A stretch of 34,894 nucleotides of DNA from a virus: IMG/VR virus record IMGVR_UViG_3300033145_001939, positions 1-34,894 of that record. The stretch is one strand, 5' to 3'. The notes under the pieces are model-generated. The model was not told the DNA's origin and ran no database searches. It worked only from the letters and a program-made list of their open reading frames with translations. A program made the translations under genes and the position numbers. Shown one piece after another: positions 20,466 to 27,059 of this stretch. Position 1 is the stretch's first letter, and every line of letters starts with the position of its first letter.

Positions 20466-21499
20466 ATGAGGAACCCGAATGGCTACGGTTAGGCACGGTA
20501 TACAGGCTCAAAGGCCGCCGCCGCAGGCCCTGGATCGCTAGAGTAACAGTGGGCTGGACGCCGGAGGGCAAGCAAATACGCCAGACGATCGGCTATTTTG
20601 AATCCAAGACGGAAGGCATGGACGCTCTGGCGCTGCACAGGGTTAACCCGGTATCACCCAGGACAAATATAACTTTGGGCGAATTGTACAAAGAATGGTC
20701 CGAAAGTAAGTATAAGCATATATCCAAATCCACAGAAAACAACTACCGGGCTGCATGGAAATACATTCAGCGCTATGAAAAAGCAAAGTTCAAAGACCTG
20801 CGTACCTCCCACTGGCAAACCATAATAGACCAGTGCGCAGAAAATAACTTAAGCCAGTCCACGCTAAAAAAAATAAAAACCGTGGCTGTCATGCTGTACG
20901 AGTATGCTATGCAGAATGACATCGTGAACAAGAACTATGCCGAATTTATTACCCTGCCGAAAGAGAGCAGAAAGGAAAGGGAGACCTTCAGCGACATCGA
21001 CATCCAGACCATGTTTAACTATGCGGACACGGTGAAATGGGTAGACACTATTCTCATTATGATCTATTCCGGCATGCGCATATCTGAAATGCTGGAGCTT
21101 ACAAAGTTTAACGTAGACCTGGAAAAGGGGATCATAACCGGGGGAGCAAAAACTGAAGCAGGGAAAAACAGGATTATTCCTATACACCCGAAGATTATCC
21201 CCTTTATTAAAAAGTGGTATGCCAAAAATGGGGAAACTCTCATCTGCCGAGAAGACGGTAAAAAAATATCAGCTAAATATTACAGGGAAAAGAAGTATTA
21301 TCCCGCTCTTGAGCAACTGGGAATAAAGAAACTTACACCCCATGCCTGCAGGCATACTTTTGCAAGTTTAATGGCCCGGGCCAAAGTGGACACGCTTCAC
21401 ATTCAAAAAATTATCGGCCACAGCGACTATGCTTTTACTGCAAATAAATATACTCACCTGGAAATCGAAGAGCTTAAAAAAGCCATAAATAAGATATAG
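20466..21499 (+). pseudogene. int: tyrosine site-specific integrase, N-terminus frameshifted
   Basis: The catalytic part is complete: Arg in YSGMRISEMLEL, HACRHTFASLM, and the nucleophile Tyr in YAFTANKYTHL. The expected N-terminal arm-binding domain starts at ATG 20466 (MRNPNGYG), but a TAG at 20490-20492 follows. The rest of that domain (GTVYRLKGRRRRPWIARVTV) is in another frame, as if TTAGG (20489-20493) had been inserted. A GTG at 20549 opens an intact 316-residue frame that lacks the first strands of the arm-binding domain. attP lies directly downstream. A TTG at 20457 is another possible start. Confidence 0.85.
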
Positions 21500-21567
21500 A
21501 AATTATGGCACAGCTAACATATAGCTAACAAAAGTACCGCAAAATCCTTATATAACAACAAACTTTC

Positions 21568-21617
21568 TTTGACTCACATTCAAGAGGTCGCTGGTTCGAA
21601 ACCAGCCGTGCCCACCA
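21568..21617 (+). other. 3' half of tRNA-Val(CAC): crossover core of attP
   Basis: TTTGA-CTCACAT-TCAAG is an anticodon arm (anticodon CAC at 21575-21577), followed by AGGTC, a T arm GCTGG-TTCGAAA-CCAGC, acceptor strand CGTGCCC, discriminator A and CCA. There is no D arm or 5' acceptor strand upstream, so this is the 50-base part that restores a host tRNA-Val gene on integration. Confidence 0.88.
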
Positions 21618-21664: not shown

Positions 21665-21731
21665 TACTTTTGGGTAAAAAAATCGTCTAGAATTGTGCTA
21701 GTTTGGGGCGGTAGCTAACACACAGCTAACA

Positions 21732-21898
21732 AATTTGGAGTAGAAAACCGGCCTTCATATTTGGCCTGTAAGGGGTTTAATATGTGGGGGTAAGGTGATT
21801 GGACGTATATTTGCTTGATAAGCTAATAAAAATTGCTGTCATACTTGATATAATTCTACTTCCAAGCTAATTTACTTGAGGGTTTAATCCTAAAGTAA
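21732..21898. other. non-coding stretch between attP and the DUF6504 gene
   Basis: No open frame with a ribosome site is seen. A TATAAT box occurs in the sequence TTGATATAATTC but without a convincing -35 element. Confidence 0.5.
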
Positions 21899-21934: not shown

Positions 21935-22177
21935 TCAATCCCAGCACCTGTACATGTACCATTTTTTCTCCTTCCGGTCATAGTAAATGTCAAACAAGCC
22001 GTGATTAACCTGCACCCGGTAAAACACCTTCTCGCTCTCCCCGGCCCACCAGGCGCCGGTCATCACCCAATAGTTAATGATTTTGGAAATCTGATAAACC
22101 TCGCGCTTCCAGGTGAAGCGGACCGGAATTTTGCCGCGAACGCTTACTTCAATAGGCTTGTCATATAGCCGGGACAA
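21935..22177 (-). CDS. DUF6504 family protein
   Basis: 80 residues: RLYDKPIEVSVRGKIPVRFTW near the start, TGAWWAGESEKVFYRVQV in the middle and WYMYRCWD at the end match the DUF6504 pattern, a small beta-rich family known mainly from bacterial chromosomes and of unknown function. The start is TTG at 22177. The ribosome site GGAGG lies in the loop of a hairpin (22180-22213). It is a single gene with its own terminator beside attP, which suggests host-derived accessory cargo. Confidence 0.8.
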   Translation of the reverse strand: MSRLYDKPIEVSVRGKIPVRFTWKREVYQISKIINYWVMTGAWWAGESEKVFYRVQVNHGLFDIYYDRKEKKWYMYRCWD

Positions 22178-22179
22178 TC

Positions 22180-22213
22180 AAACCACCCGCCTCCTAAATT
22201 CTGGGGGTGGTTT
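22180..22213. other. perfect 9-bp hairpin enclosing the DUF6504 ribosome site
   Basis: AAACCACCC (22180-22188) and GGGTGGTTT (22205-22213) with a 16-base loop. Read on the plus strand it is followed by TTATT and resembles a terminator. Read on the minus strand its loop exposes GGAGG just before the TTG start of DUF6504. Confidence 0.7.
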
Positions 22214-22370
22214 TTATTATAAGGGAACAGGTGTTTGGGTGTCAAGGGAGAGGCTCCTATAAACCATTGTCGAAAATTGTCATATTGTGCCAAAAAGGAG
22301 GAATCTCAATCTCAATAGTCGTATATTGGTTTCAGGAAATTTTGAGAATGACAGGAAAGGAGGGAAAGCA

Positions 22371-22853
22371 TTGCCAGCAATAGGAATACGTTCAACCCCT
22401 AATGAAATTTTTTATGTAATTGTTGACGGCACAGTAGATAATCCCACCCTTACGGTCCATAGCAAATTGAGACAGCCCTCTGCTTATGAACTCCCCAAGG
22501 CTTTATCCTGGTATCGAGAAAAAATACTTGCCATCACTGAGGAGTTTGGTATTCAAGCTTGCGGAATAAGAACTACCGAGCCAATCTCTAGAACAATGGG
22601 AGCATCCGCTAGGGAAGGCGCCACAATAAGGGCTCACATTGAAGGAGTTGCAGCTGAAGCGGCAGCTTCGATTGGCTTAAACGTCGTGATCGGACCCCTC
22701 GCAACAATAACTGCGTTTTTAGATTCTAAGAATGCAAAAAAATACCTATCCAACGACGAGTTTAGAGGGATAGATCAATGGAGTGACTTAAACACATACT
22801 ATAAAGAAGCTATTCTTGCGGGAGTGGCTGCTCTCCGGACACTGGAGGAATGA
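22371..22853 (+). CDS. RNase H/RuvC-like fold protein of unknown function, kinase partner
   Basis: The frame opens at GTG 22287, but the best start is TTG at 22371, seven bases after AAGGAGG, giving 160 residues beginning MPAIGIRSTPNEIFYVIVDG. A beta-hairpin start of this sort, then helices, ACGIRTTEPISRT and HIEGVAAEAAASIGLNVVIG, resembles an RNase H/RuvC-like fold. The first catalytic Asp position is Arg (GIR), and no second Asp pair is obvious near the C-terminus, so nuclease activity is doubtful. Ten bases before the kinase gene, same strand: clearly one operon. The fold call is an inference from pattern only. Confidence 0.6.
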   Translation: MPAIGIRSTPNEIFYVIVDGTVDNPTLTVHSKLRQPSAYELPKALSWYREKILAITEEFGIQACGIRTTEPISRTMGASAREGATIRAHIEGVAAEAAASIGLNVVIGPLATITAFLDSKNAKKYLSNDEFRGIDQWSDLNTYYKEAILAGVAALRTLEE

Positions 22854-22862
22854 GGAAGGATC

Positions 22863-23930
22863 ATGGAAATCGTTTCAACAATAAAAGCTAAGATCATAAA
22901 AGAAATTGGAGTTGGCAAAGGCCAAAATTCCCGAGTTTTTCTTGCCTATGACCCCCAATTAGGTGGTGAAGTGGCCTTAAAAGAAATGCACATTAGTCGT
23001 TTTAAGTCGCCGGACCAATATTTCAATGAAGCAAAAGCTCTCTACGCTAATAGAAGTCCTCGGGTTGTACCTGTAAACTACGCTTGTAGAGATGCAGACC
23101 ATATCAGGATTGTAATGCCATACTATCGCAATGGTTCTCTTCAAGACAAACTTTATCATGGCCCTCTTACAGTACGTAAGATAATCGAATGGGCTGATCA
23201 GTTCTTAACTGGGGCACATTATGTTCATGCAAACCATTACATTCATTTTGATATTAAACCAAGTAATATACTTATACAAAATGACGGAAGTGTGGCACTT
23301 GCAGATTTTGGTCAATCAATGCCTGTAAATTATCTTGGCGTCGCCGATGTCCCAGCTATCTACTGGGTTCATTACCCGCCTGAAGCCTTTCTCAAAGACA
23401 AGGTTACGCTATCAGCAGATATGTACCAAATTGGATTGACCTTGTACAGAATGTGCAATGGAGATCAATATTTTAAAAAACAATTACCAGATTTGCCAGT
23501 TATGCCTGACGAGTTCAGAGACGCATTACAAAGACTGGTATTATCAGGGAAATTTCCCAATAGAAATAGCTTTCTCCCACATATACCTTTACGATTGCGA
23601 ACAATCGTTCGAAAATTACTGAAAATCGATCCATCAGATAGATATGAAACCATTATTGACTTGCAAAACGACTTAGGGCAAGTTGATACGTCACTCGACT
23701 GGGAGTATAATGAACTTACAAACGGAGCTATCTGGAGAAAAAAGAACATTACTCATGAATATGAGATAAAACTAGAGCCCATTAGTAATAAATGGATTAT
23801 TGTTGGGCATACTATTAGACGTTCTGACGGGCTTAGGCGGAGAAAAGGCGACTGGTGCGACGGACCTTTTCCAACGAGGAGGGAAGCAGAAAAACGCCTT
23901 GAGAGACTTTTCAGAAGTATGGAGGAATGA
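22863..23930 (+). CDS. Hanks-type serine/threonine protein kinase with a novel C-terminal domain
   Basis: 355 residues. All kinase landmarks are present: glycine loop GVGKGQNSRV (16-25), Lys40 in VALK, Glu56, catalytic loop HFDIKPSN (128-135, HFD in place of HRD), DFG (148-150) and PPE (172-174). Kinase fold ends near residue 275. The last 80 residues (NGAIWRKKNITHEYEIKLEP, then GPFPTRREAEKRLERLF) are a separate domain without membrane segment or PASTA repeats, so the enzyme is cytoplasmic. Phage-borne kinases of this kind include anti-phage abortive-infection proteins and host-modifying kinases. Flanked by its partner gene and a zinc-ribbon gene. Confidence 0.88.
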   Translation: MEIVSTIKAKIIKEIGVGKGQNSRVFLAYDPQLGGEVALKEMHISRFKSPDQYFNEAKALYANRSPRVVPVNYACRDADHIRIVMPYYRNGSLQDKLYHGPLTVRKIIEWADQFLTGAHYVHANHYIHFDIKPSNILIQNDGSVALADFGQSMPVNYLGVADVPAIYWVHYPPEAFLKDKVTLSADMYQIGLTLYRMCNGDQYFKKQLPDLPVMPDEFRDALQRLVLSGKFPNRNSFLPHIPLRLRTIVRKLLKIDPSDRYETIIDLQNDLGQVDTSLDWEYNELTNGAIWRKKNITHEYEIKLEPISNKWIIVGHTIRRSDGLRRRKGDWCDGPFPTRREAEKRLERLFRSMEE

Positions 23931-23933
23931 AAA

Positions 23934-24113
23934 GTGAAATCAATAAAATGCCCGTTTTGTGGGCGGAAATTTGTTCGGAACGCCAGAGCCCTGTTAGCAA
24001 ATAGGTATTGCAAATACTGTATTGACGAAAGAGTTAAAAAAAGCGGAGGCCTTCCTATACCTACACAAGCCAAATTTACCGAAGTTAAACCAGGTTACTT
24101 TATATTTAAATGA
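23934..24113 (+). CDS. small zinc-ribbon protein, third gene of the kinase operon
   Basis: 59 residues from GTG at 23934, eight bases after the GGAGG formed by the last kinase codons. CPFCGRKFVRN and RYCKYCIDERVKKSG form a CX2C...CX2C zinc site; the tail ends in KPGYFIFK. Same strand, three bases after the kinase stop, so co-translated. Function unknown; possibly a nucleic-acid- or partner-binding subunit. Confidence 0.75.
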   Translation: MKSIKCPFCGRKFVRNARALLANRYCKYCIDERVKKSGGLPIPTQAKFTEVKPGYFIFK

Positions 24114-24121
24114 TAAATTAA

Positions 24122-24149
24122 AAGCCCCCGACCATCCGGCCAGGGGCTT
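24122..24149. terminator. bidirectional terminator between kinase operon and lysis genes
   Basis: AAGCCCC (24122-24128) pairs with GGGGCTT (24143-24149). The minus strand continues as TTTTAATTT, ending the tail/lysis transcript; the plus strand is a weaker stop for the kinase operon. Confidence 0.8.
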
Positions 24150-24161
24150 CCTTACCTAAAA

Positions 24162-24473
24162 TTATTTATTATCCCTCGCTCTTACAATCTGTCCCAAAAC
24201 ACCTTTAGCAAATTCCGTAAGTCCGCTAGCTCCACCAGAGATCGCAACACCAGTCAAAACATAATCTGCATATTCACCGTACTGGATCTGCGCCTTCAGC
24301 CCCAGCATGTCCAGGATCCCAGCCTTGTATATCACGCATAGCACTATGCCGATCGCCAGCGCAATCAAGCCCGTGTACCGGTCCGTAATGAATGCCTTGA
24401 ACCGGCCGGTTAGCAGCTGAATAAACATGGCCAAAATGAATGCTGTCAAGAGAACGCCGAATTCACCGTCCAC
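24162..24473 (-). CDS. putative holin
   Basis: 103 residues with three probable membrane segments: GVLLTAFILAMFIQLLTG, GLIALAIGIVLCVIYKAGIL and YVLTGVAISGGASGL, and a charged C-terminus (IVRARDNK). Holins form the lesions that release the lysin; size, topology and position at the end of the lysis cassette fit. GTG at 24473 with GGGGTGAGG upstream. Confidence 0.7.
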   Translation of the reverse strand: MDGEFGVLLTAFILAMFIQLLTGRFKAFITDRYTGLIALAIGIVLCVIYKAGILDMLGLKAQIQYGEYADYVLTGVAISGGASGLTEFAKGVLGQIVRARDNK

Positions 24474-24478
24474 TTACC

Positions 24479-24697
24479 TCACCCCCTTTCCTTCGTCTTA
24501 GACCACTGCAGCAATCCCCATATCGCCAGGACAAAATAAACAAAAAACAGCGCACTCTGCGCCTTGGCTCCTAACCGCCAGTCATAAATCATCCAGAAGG
24601 CATTGGTGAACGACCAGATCACAAAGCAACGGCGGTCCTTTTTGACGTTTAGGATTACGCCGATTAACGCTAGAAAGGAAACTGTCCAGCTAATCAT
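24479..24697 (-). CDS. small phage membrane protein, possible second holin or PnuC-like
   Basis: From ATG at 24697 (MISWTVSFLALIGVILNV) with AGGAG upstream the product has 72 residues, with segments FLALIGVILNV and SALFFVYFVLAIWGLLQW. The motif WMIYDWRLGAKAQ recalls short PnuC-like or MtN3-type membrane proteins found in lysis modules. It overlaps the amidase stop by eight bases and precedes the holin. Confidence 0.6.
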   Translation of the reverse strand: MISWTVSFLALIGVILNVKKDRRCFVIWSFTNAFWMIYDWRLGAKAQSALFFVYFVLAIWGLLQWSKTKERG

Positions 24698-25880
24698 GAA
24701 CCACAATCTCCTTGCTGCCAATCCGCATGACAATTTTCCGGTCGTTGATAATACAGGTCACTGCCTGGCTGGCCGCATCCCAGTCCACCTGGCCGCCAGC
24801 AGCTTCAATTAAAACCCGGGCTGGAAGGAATGTGCGGCCATCTTTGATAAATGGGGCCACATCGGAGGTAATGATTTTGCCTTTAGACATGCGCTTATGC
24901 ACCTCATCCATATCAAAATTATTGCCGGGACAACTCTTGTAGGTAGCATATTTCCAGTGCGGCTCCACGTCCTCAACTTTAATGCCTGGGTACCTGGTCC
25001 GGATCTCGTTACACTTCTCTGCCACAAGCTGATAAATTTCCTTCGTGGGCGTGTCCTTGTCAAAGTTTCCGACCACGCACAGGCCGATACTCTTGTAGTT
25101 CATCCTCTGCTCTTTCACATGCGCCCCGGGGGTTTTCTCATCGCGCCCGGGAATCCAAAAATACCTATTCGAGACCTGTTCAAGTACCCAATGATACCCA
25201 ATATCGTTCCATCCCTTGACCTGCGTGTGGTAACGCTTGATGGCATTGAAGTCTTTCAAGATGATATTATCGTCGGTCAGAGAATGGTGGATGATAATTT
25301 TTTGAGGATTGTTCACGGTATCAACCTCCAAAGACATAAACCACTCTTTGATCTCCTCTCCCGGCGGATTTACTCGCCGGTAAAACTCATAGCTTCCCAC
25401 CTGCGCCTCCGGCGGGCCAAACAGAAACCGAAAGTCTTCAGCGAATATCTCCCTGGGCCGGTGGTAATACCCATACTGTTCCTCCCAGGTGATGCCCCGC
25501 AACTCCTTATATTTCGTCAGGTCTGGCACATAAAGAAGCTGCACCACATGGCCCAACTCGTGCGTAAACCACGACGGAAGGTATTCGGCAGGCTGGACAC
25601 CCAAAACTATGTGCGTATGGTAGGACTGGCCATGATAGCTCGCTCCCCAGCCATAGCTTTCTGACCACCTGCGCAACTGGTACGGAAATAGAAAAACCTC
25701 CACAGGGAAGCTCTGGACAGGGAACGATATTTTTTCTAGCGTATGTTCTACAAGTCCTACCGATGGAGCGGGGCCGCCTTCGTCAGCCATATAATTAGTT
25801 TGGCCTGCATAGTCAAACACGAAACCGCCCTCAAAGGGCTTGACCAAGGTTTTTGTGTGGTCAGGACCATGGATTTTCAT
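24690..25880 (-). CDS. triple-domain lytic enzyme: HELGH metallopeptidase + amidase_2 + copper-amine-oxidase-like domain
   Basis: 396 residues. Residues 1-190 carry HELGH (107-111) and a downstream REIFAEDFRFLFG Glu/Asp motif, as in gluzincin-type zinc peptidases. Residues about 195-330 are an N-acetylmuramoyl-L-alanine amidase (KIIIHHSLTDDN, SIGLCVVGNFDKD, PHWKYATYKSCPGNNF). The last 60 residues are a copper-amine-oxidase N-terminal-like domain (DGRTFLPARVLIEAAGGQVD), common on clostridial cell-wall proteins. No signal peptide; export would need the holin. GAGG precedes the ATG. The peptidase part is an unusual addition to a phage endolysin. Confidence 0.85.
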   Translation of the reverse strand: MKIHGPDHTKTLVKPFEGGFVFDYAGQTNYMADEGGPAPSVGLVEHTLEKISFPVQSFPVEVFLFPYQLRRWSESYGWGASYHGQSYHTHIVLGVQPAEYLPSWFTHELGHVVQLLYVPDLTKYKELRGITWEEQYGYYHRPREIFAEDFRFLFGPPEAQVGSYEFYRRVNPPGEEIKEWFMSLEVDTVNNPQKIIIHHSLTDDNIILKDFNAIKRYHTQVKGWNDIGYHWVLEQVSNRYFWIPGRDEKTPGAHVKEQRMNYKSIGLCVVGNFDKDTPTKEIYQLVAEKCNEIRTRYPGIKVEDVEPHWKYATYKSCPGNNFDMDEVHKRMSKGKIITSDVAPFIKDGRTFLPARVLIEAAGGQVDWDAASQAVTCIINDRKIVMRIGSKEIVVHD

Positions 25881-26501: not shown

Positions 26502-27059
26502 ATGAAACGTTCCTGTCTTGGTGTTTTAACAGGTTTGCTTGTTGGTTTTATCTTGGCTACCACCACCTTTGGCTTTGCCGCCCCTAACCCAATCCGTCTC
26601 ATCGTCAATGGTAAGGAGGTCCCCTGCGATCCCCCGCCGCAAATGATCGGCGGTAGGGTGTTTGTGCCGGTTAGGTTTGTGGCCGAGGCGTTGGGGGCAA
26701 AGGTGGACTGGGATGAAACAAAAAATGCTGTAATTATATCATCTAGTTTAACTATAAACGTCGACAAAGAAACAAAGGCTATCCCTACAACTGAAGGCTC
26801 TCCAGGTTATTATCCGGGTCGCCCCATCATAGAAGCTATTACGAAAAAATATCCTAATTTAAAACCTTCCAGTAGTAATTTAAATATAGAACCTAAAAAA
26901 GGTGAATACCGATTTCTTATAGAAACGGGCGAATTGTGGATTGATGGCCAGAAATATGTTTTACCTAAAAAAAGTATAAATAACAGAACGTATTTTAGTA
27001 TCAATCCATTAATTGTTGCAGGTGTATTAAGCTCAGACGATATTCAGTTGCTGCAATAG
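26502..27059 (+). CDS. secreted copper-amine-oxidase-like domain protein (moron)
   Basis: 185 residues with a signal peptide (basic MKRSCLGVL, then hydrophobic LLVGFILATTTFGFAA, cleavage near A27). Residues 32-80 form a copper-amine-oxidase N-terminal-like domain (RVFVPVRFVAEALGAKVDWD), widespread on cell-surface proteins of Peptococcaceae. The C-terminal half is unique. Strong AAGGAGG before the ATG. It runs opposite to the tail/lysis genes and its end overlaps the convergent gene by 27 bases. Likely a lysogenic-conversion gene altering the host surface. Confidence 0.75.
   Translation: MKRSCLGVLTGLLVGFILATTTFGFAAPNPIRLIVNGKEVPCDPPPQMIGGRVFVPVRFVAEALGAKVDWDETKNAVIISSSLTINVDKETKAIPTTEGSPGYYPGRPIIEAITKKYPNLKPSSSNLNIEPKKGEYRFLIETGELWIDGQKYVLPKKSINNRTYFSINPLIVAGVLSSDDIQLLQ

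Follow-up and report, generated by a model that had tools for sequence, protein, structure and literature searches.

Organization of the operon and its surroundings

The DNA analysed here (the window) is the whole of virus record IMGVR_UViG_3300033145_001939, 34.9 kb in length, and the carrier is a temperate phage of Gram-positive bacteria. Three genes follow each other closely on the plus strand: ORF1 (22371–22853; 160 aa, TTG start); a gene for a Stk-type protein kinase (22863–23930; 355 aa), assigned by Pfam, PHROG, tblastn and alignment; and ORF3 (23934–24113; 59 aa, GTG start), whose product carries two CxxC knuckles. Only 9 nt separate ORF1 from the kinase gene, and 3 nt the kinase gene from ORF3. 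As judged from the sequence, the ribosome-binding sites of the operon are good: AAGGAGGGA stands directly 5' of the TTG start of ORF1, with the Shine-Dalgarno element, AAGGAGGG, at positions 22357–22364 (plus strand). A strong terminator-like hairpin with a 14-pair stem (24120–24151) separates ORF3 from the convergent lysis genes, and a weaker one lies 5' of the operon (22187–22210, plus strand); both carry T-runs. The right-hand neighbours of the operon, encoding holin-like, amidase and minor head/tail proteins, are on the minus strand. Inspection of the sequence 5' of the operon identified no lysogeny promoter.

To the left, the integrase gene (20549–21499) is followed just downstream by a probable attP core (about 21581–21617, plus strand), recognized from sequence and repeats as the 3' end of a tRNA gene (T-arm and CCA), with AGCTAAC arm repeats on either side (21512–21532 and 21713–21733); ARAGORN found no complete tRNA in the window. 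We regard the placement of attP as sound because the integrase adjoins a tRNA T-arm and CCA with flanking arm repeats and, since both integrase and attP lie in mid-record, the record is apparently not written as an integrated prophage. The preliminary description had reported a tight plus-strand operon bounded by hairpins, placed between attP and oppositely oriented lysis and tail genes where prophage cargo is found; its coordinates are right, and each of these points holds.

Two further features of the region may be recorded. An 80-aa orphan gene with its own terminator lies between attP and the operon (21935–22177, minus strand); it is preceded by a perfect consensus promoter (TTGACA-18-TATAAT, 22245–22216), and no PHROG match was found for it. 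The amidase endolysin of the window (24690–25880, minus strand) includes a Cu_amine_oxidN1 domain, a second Cu_amine_oxidN1 protein is encoded on the opposite strand inside the tail region (26502–27059, plus strand), and the closest relative operon, L172, also adjoins a Cu_amine_oxidN1 gene.

ORF1 has a RuvC-like fold with an altered active site

AlphaFold2, supplied with 42 aligned sequences, produced a model of ORF1 with a pLDDT of 94.5 and a pTM of 0.89, in which strands and helices follow each other in RNase H order. The best Foldseek matches of the model are RuvC resolvases (2.3e-9), and ORF1 resembles RuvC in overall fold and length, as judged by a VIA-align 2 superposition with Z 18.2 over 150 residues at 3.0 Å. 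Sequence searches were less productive: the ORF1 profile retrieved chance hits only from the PDB, tblastn with ORF1 gave no match in phage records, and neither the window kinase nor ORF1, used as a single query sequence, found a match among viral contigs, a failure explained by the departure of the window ORF1 from the RxxIE[GA]VIQE signature, so that an alignment is needed.

With true RuvC proteins from cassette-carrying genomes as the comparison set, the register was fixed jointly by the fold and a weak sequence signal (profile–profile E 4e-4). RuvC strand 1 'GIDPG' then aligns with 'GIRxxP' of ORF1, which puts Arg7 in place of the catalytic Asp, and the RuvC Glu after strand 4 aligns with Arg67; the catalytic acids of RuvC (Asp7 and Glu66 in the E. 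coli enzyme) are thus both arginine in ORF1. Arg7 is found in all 42 ORF1 proteins and Arg67 in 40 (Lys in 2); Glu70 is likewise present in 40 (Asp in 2), and Arg49, Arg87, Glu91, Glu96 and Glu146 are each found in 42 of 42. Such strict conservation suggests that the site retains some role. Arginines in place of two metal ligands should inactivate a two-metal nuclease of the RuvC kind. Because the two catalytic acids have become conserved arginines, ORF1 is predicted, from model and alignment, probably to be without resolvase activity, in agreement with an earlier reading of the first protein as RNase H/RuvC-like with no intact active site. All 42 family members match phrog_3875 ('RuvC-like Holliday junction resolvase'), a public label that is probably wrong about activity. 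ORF1 also differs from RuvC in not being net basic (family mean charge −2.5), which argues against simple DNA binding and leans towards a protein ligand.

The kinase and its C-terminal domain

The window kinase matches Pfam Pkinase (1.4e-36) and phrog_2361 (8.5e-59), and its motifs are intact: Lys40, Glu56, HFD130IKPSN135 and DFG148–150. That all catalytic motifs are present had been observed before; Lys40, Glu56, Asp130, Asn135 and Asp148 prove to be invariant in 35 of 35 aligned kinases. The HxD motif reads HFD in 31 of the 35, making these non-RD kinases. The best tblastn matches in phage records are to SPbetaL7 (1e-76) and to the stk gene of phi24B, of the Stx phages (5e-52). Against the NCBIfam models antiphage_MADS6 and PknB_PASTA_kin the kinase scores 71.5 and 106.3 bits, below the respective cut-offs of 460 and 450 bits, and its match to the PADLOC PD-T4-6 profiles is to the generic kinase domain.

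The tail of the kinase, previously called unfamiliar, is predicted to form a family-specific C-terminal beta domain (residues 280–355; 23700–23927, plus strand) that folds confidently (pLDDT about 97), with strands at 281–336 and a helix at 339–354, and it has no significant match in Pfam. The segment after residue 279 could be aligned in all 35 relatives, phi24B included, and has a mean identity of 20% compared with 45% for the kinase domain, which marks it as fast-evolving. When the whole kinase was searched by fold against the PDB, kinase domains took up the hit list. The strand and motif pattern of the tail had prompted an AP2/integrase-arm-like interpretation, which lacked support and was discarded.

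At three loci the kinase frame is interrupted while ORF1 and ORF3 are open (L010:5462–6500, L015:2607–3654 and L021:5456–6501); such interruptions suggest that an active kinase may impose a cost.

ORF3 is a short basic protein

A small ORF follows the kinase gene in 73 of 75 distinct loci. The encoded proteins are short and basic (mean net charge +6.5). Sequence conservation among them is low; what recurs is an R[S/D/E]xLAxP-like stretch, together with aromatic residues at the end. Against a profile built without it, the window ORF3 outscores its own shuffled versions in all but 8 of 5000 cases. The zinc ribbon by which the third protein was originally described is present in the window (CPFC...CKYC), but it does not define the family: two CxxC knuckles occur in 1 of the 73 distinct ORF3 proteins, and one further double-CxxC ORF3 belongs to the closest relative, a Paenibacillales prophage (L166/L172). 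Judged by these sequences, the ribbon is a lineage-specific addition, the trait of a sub-lineage.

The three genes are linked across several phyla

The order ORF1–kinase–ORF3 was found in 140 loci encoding 75 distinct ORF1 proteins. Loci retrieved by ORF1 alone have the kinase directly downstream in all cases except L009, where the contig ends, and among 67 loci retrieved by the kinase alone, 65 have ORF1 immediately 5' of it. A neighbourhood survey had been set beforehand in the preliminary description; its outcome is that the kinase is not always found alone and that the gene order is kept. L120 and L143 were rejected as cases of a kinase without ORF1 (contig end; different, distant kinase). 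A profile search of 780 genomes, from two groups other than E. coli, returned 11 family members (9 of 395 and 2 of 385), every one with an adjacent kinase; L170 was rejected as a member, being a genuine RuvC caught by the profile, with no linked kinase. ORF1 and kinase distances are correlated with r=0.887, a value reached in 0 of 2000 permutations and expected if ORF1 and kinase are inherited together. Linkage of the three genes by chance is excluded.

The cassette is carried by lambdoid, SPbeta-like, clostridial and rhizobial phages and by genomes of several phyla, with records from Alpha- and Gammaproteobacteria, Bacillota, Bacteroidota and the Salinibacter/Fodinibius group. Present in 221 of 5426 complete E. 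coli genomes, it is a patchy accessory element, and it also occurs on chromosomes and plasmids. The surroundings of the chromosomal copies give a faint and heterogeneous defence-island signal (methylases, HipA, OLD-like ATPases), with no recurrent neighbour. Two outlying records deserve mention. In Paenibacillales, L167:1501–2993 encodes an ORF1-like protein that keeps GVR in strand 1, and the next gene specifies an HRD-type kinase; the pair is perhaps a sister system. An 8.2-kb E. coli record, CP148561 (hit H42), bears an ORF1–kinase pair and is possibly a satellite or a small plasmid.

The cargo position recognized in the window recurs elsewhere, in slots that vary. The window operon sits beside attP and the copy of its closest relative beside the tail genes. 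In lambdoid phages the cassette lies downstream of cI, in the slot that rexAB occupies in lambda; mEp506 has hicABC in this slot (cI–N), with matching flanks. In SPbeta-like phages the cassette lies between a XerC-like recombinase and yomJ/yomI, and relatives with flanks about 94–98% identical carry other genes there. The SPbeta-like slot is highly variable, with several gene contents (L002:2311–6494; L153–L157). Exclusion genes are common in variable cargo sites of this kind.

Relationship to Stk and to other kinase systems

Sequence comparison groups the window kinase with Stk of Stx phage 933W. The kinases of 933W and phi24B are homologous to it including the C-terminal domain, ORF1 and ORF3 flank them in the same order, and they too are prophage cargo; they differ in that the window kinase is 35% identical, the window ORF3 has its zinc ribbon, and the window operon lies by attP and not by cI. 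The gene order in JLK-2012 is cI, DUF3024 gene, ORF1, stk, ORF3. The same genes are present in phi24B, whose immunity-region record leaves ORF1 and ORF3 unannotated.

According to the accessible parts of the published reports, 933W stk is cotranscribed with cI, and Stk activity aborts HK97 infection of the lysogen (PMC3564112, PMC6356687); Stk is activated upon HK97 infection, with little activity in uninfected cells (PMC3681748), and stk expression is limited to stable lysogeny (PMC3430580). Homology to this kinase substantiates the link to abortive infection drawn in the preliminary description. In those same parts, the Stk work deals with the kinase only and makes no mention of ORF1 or ORF3. 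The two lysogeny-restricted proteins that 2D-PAGE detected in a study of phi24B lysogens, P2 and P3, are encoded downstream of cI (PMC3342100). From consecutive 933W accessions and the JLK-2012 gene order we infer that P2 corresponds to the DUF3024 gene product and P3 to the ORF1 homologue; P2 and the DUF3024 gene are both present in Salmonella phage SE1. Since P3 is lysogeny-restricted, ORF1 would, given this assignment, probably be made in lysogens.

Genes 73-72-71 of the Bacillus SPbeta-like phage SPbetaL7 match the three genes and their order, with a kinase 38.6% identical over 97%, but are annotated only as hypothetical and have an ORF3 without CxxC. The Paenibacillales prophage operon (L166/L172) is closer (ORF1 44%, kinase 46% and ORF3 41%, with all four cysteines), and differs in its phage position, after the tail genes. 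KKP, CapK/VapK, Stk2, PD-T4-6 and MADS mad6 likewise represent kinase-based phage defence, or control thereof, but have other partners or are single genes. The kinase domain of CapK is of the GHKL type, and CapK is paired with a STAS partner; KKP differs from the window, where positions 21935–24473 hold no second kinase and no phosphatase; PD-T4-6 is a stand-alone kinase gene, whereas the window kinase family is part of a three-gene unit; and the curated antiphage_MADS6 cut-off separates the window kinase from mad6.

We found no description of the three-gene unit in the literature, in a search that was thin on subscription journals and is weak evidence of absence. The earlier statement that no system of this composition has been described stands, within the searchable literature, for the unit, but not for its kinase, which is of the published Stk type. 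Exclusion by means of a kinase is known for Stk; absent from that literature are the obligate unit of three genes and its spread over phyla, a dead RuvC as partner, and the sub-lineage with a zinc ribbon.

Proposed function and alternative explanations

We propose that the cassette is probably a lysogeny-expressed, tripartite abortive-infection (superinfection-exclusion) module of the Stk type. Defence has been demonstrated by others, and for the 933W kinase only; that the window operon is active, and that ORF1 and ORF3 act as follows, is what we infer. The kinase would be the effector, silent in the lysogen until a product of an incoming phage switches it on, whereupon protein phosphorylation would halt the infected cell. 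ORF1, its metal-binding acids now conserved arginines, would not cut DNA; it would most likely sense a phage recombination or replication protein, or its DNA intermediate, and relay the signal to the kinase. The short, basic ORF3 could be a partner or inhibitor of the ORF1/kinase pair, and in the window lineage it would have gained a zinc ribbon. The proposal draws on the strict linkage and co-inheritance of the genes, the invariant catalytic residues, the matching operon at 933W-type stk loci, the lysogeny-restricted P3, the cargo slots and the patchy distribution; against it count the lack of constant defence-island neighbours, the charge of ORF1, the failure to identify a lysogeny promoter, the low sequence conservation of ORF3 and the treatment of the kinase alone in the accessible Stk reports.

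A more specific version, in which the dead RuvC recognizes the junctions or the annealing protein of the invader and so switches on the kinase, which halts the cell by phosphorylation, is offered tentatively and is doubtful as it stands. The HK97 function that activates Stk is reportedly 'Orf41'. Between genes 40 and 42 the HK97 record has erf, which encodes a single-strand annealing protein; in AF069529 (24175–24780) erf is labelled Gp40, as is its neighbour, and would be gene 41 by order. If erf is Orf41, the position of a dead RuvC beside the kinase would be understandable, as it could read recombination proteins or junctions.

The interrupted kinases at L010, L015 and L021, accompanied by intact ORF1 and ORF3, are as expected of a costly kinase and would also suit a kinase-based toxin–antitoxin or addiction module, in which ORF1 and/or ORF3 neutralize a toxic kinase and which serves mainly to stabilize a prophage or plasmid. 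Small basic and regulator-like proteins do adjoin a potentially toxic kinase here, and the cassette occurs on plasmids too; the strict three-gene order is nevertheless more than a mere pair, and we consider this explanation unlikely. Such a role would be compatible with defence, neither excluding the other.

Somewhat less likely still is a prophage regulatory module, in which the kinase would regulate its own prophage, or a co-resident one, at the level of lysogeny or induction. Adjacency to cI in lambdoid phages would fit this, and there is a precedent in KKP of Pseudomonas, a prophage kinase–kinase–phosphatase module that serves both lysogeny control and defence (PMC11341870). The position of the cassette in phages varies, however (by cI, attP, tail genes or in the SPbeta slot), chromosomal and plasmid copies have no constant neighbour, and the operon contains neither a phosphatase nor a second kinase.

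Phage-borne Ser/Thr kinases for host takeover, such as T7 gp0.7, are part of general knowledge. A lytic-cycle role of that kind is very improbable for the window kinase, given that the operon is opposite to the late genes and in a cargo position, that the 933W/phi24B counterpart is expressed in lysogeny only, according to the accessible parts of the reports (PMC3430580, PMC3342100), and that the cassette is found in many bacterial genomes.

Implications

Should an obligate cassette that extends over several phyla have Stk as its central gene, a likely sensor and a likely regulator stand unannotated at either side of it, the question of what activates Stk becomes directly testable, and phrog_3875 needs renaming, as its members have lost the active site of the resolvase. 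What has been regarded as a 'single-gene' Stk defence is probably a component of a tripartite system that is widespread.
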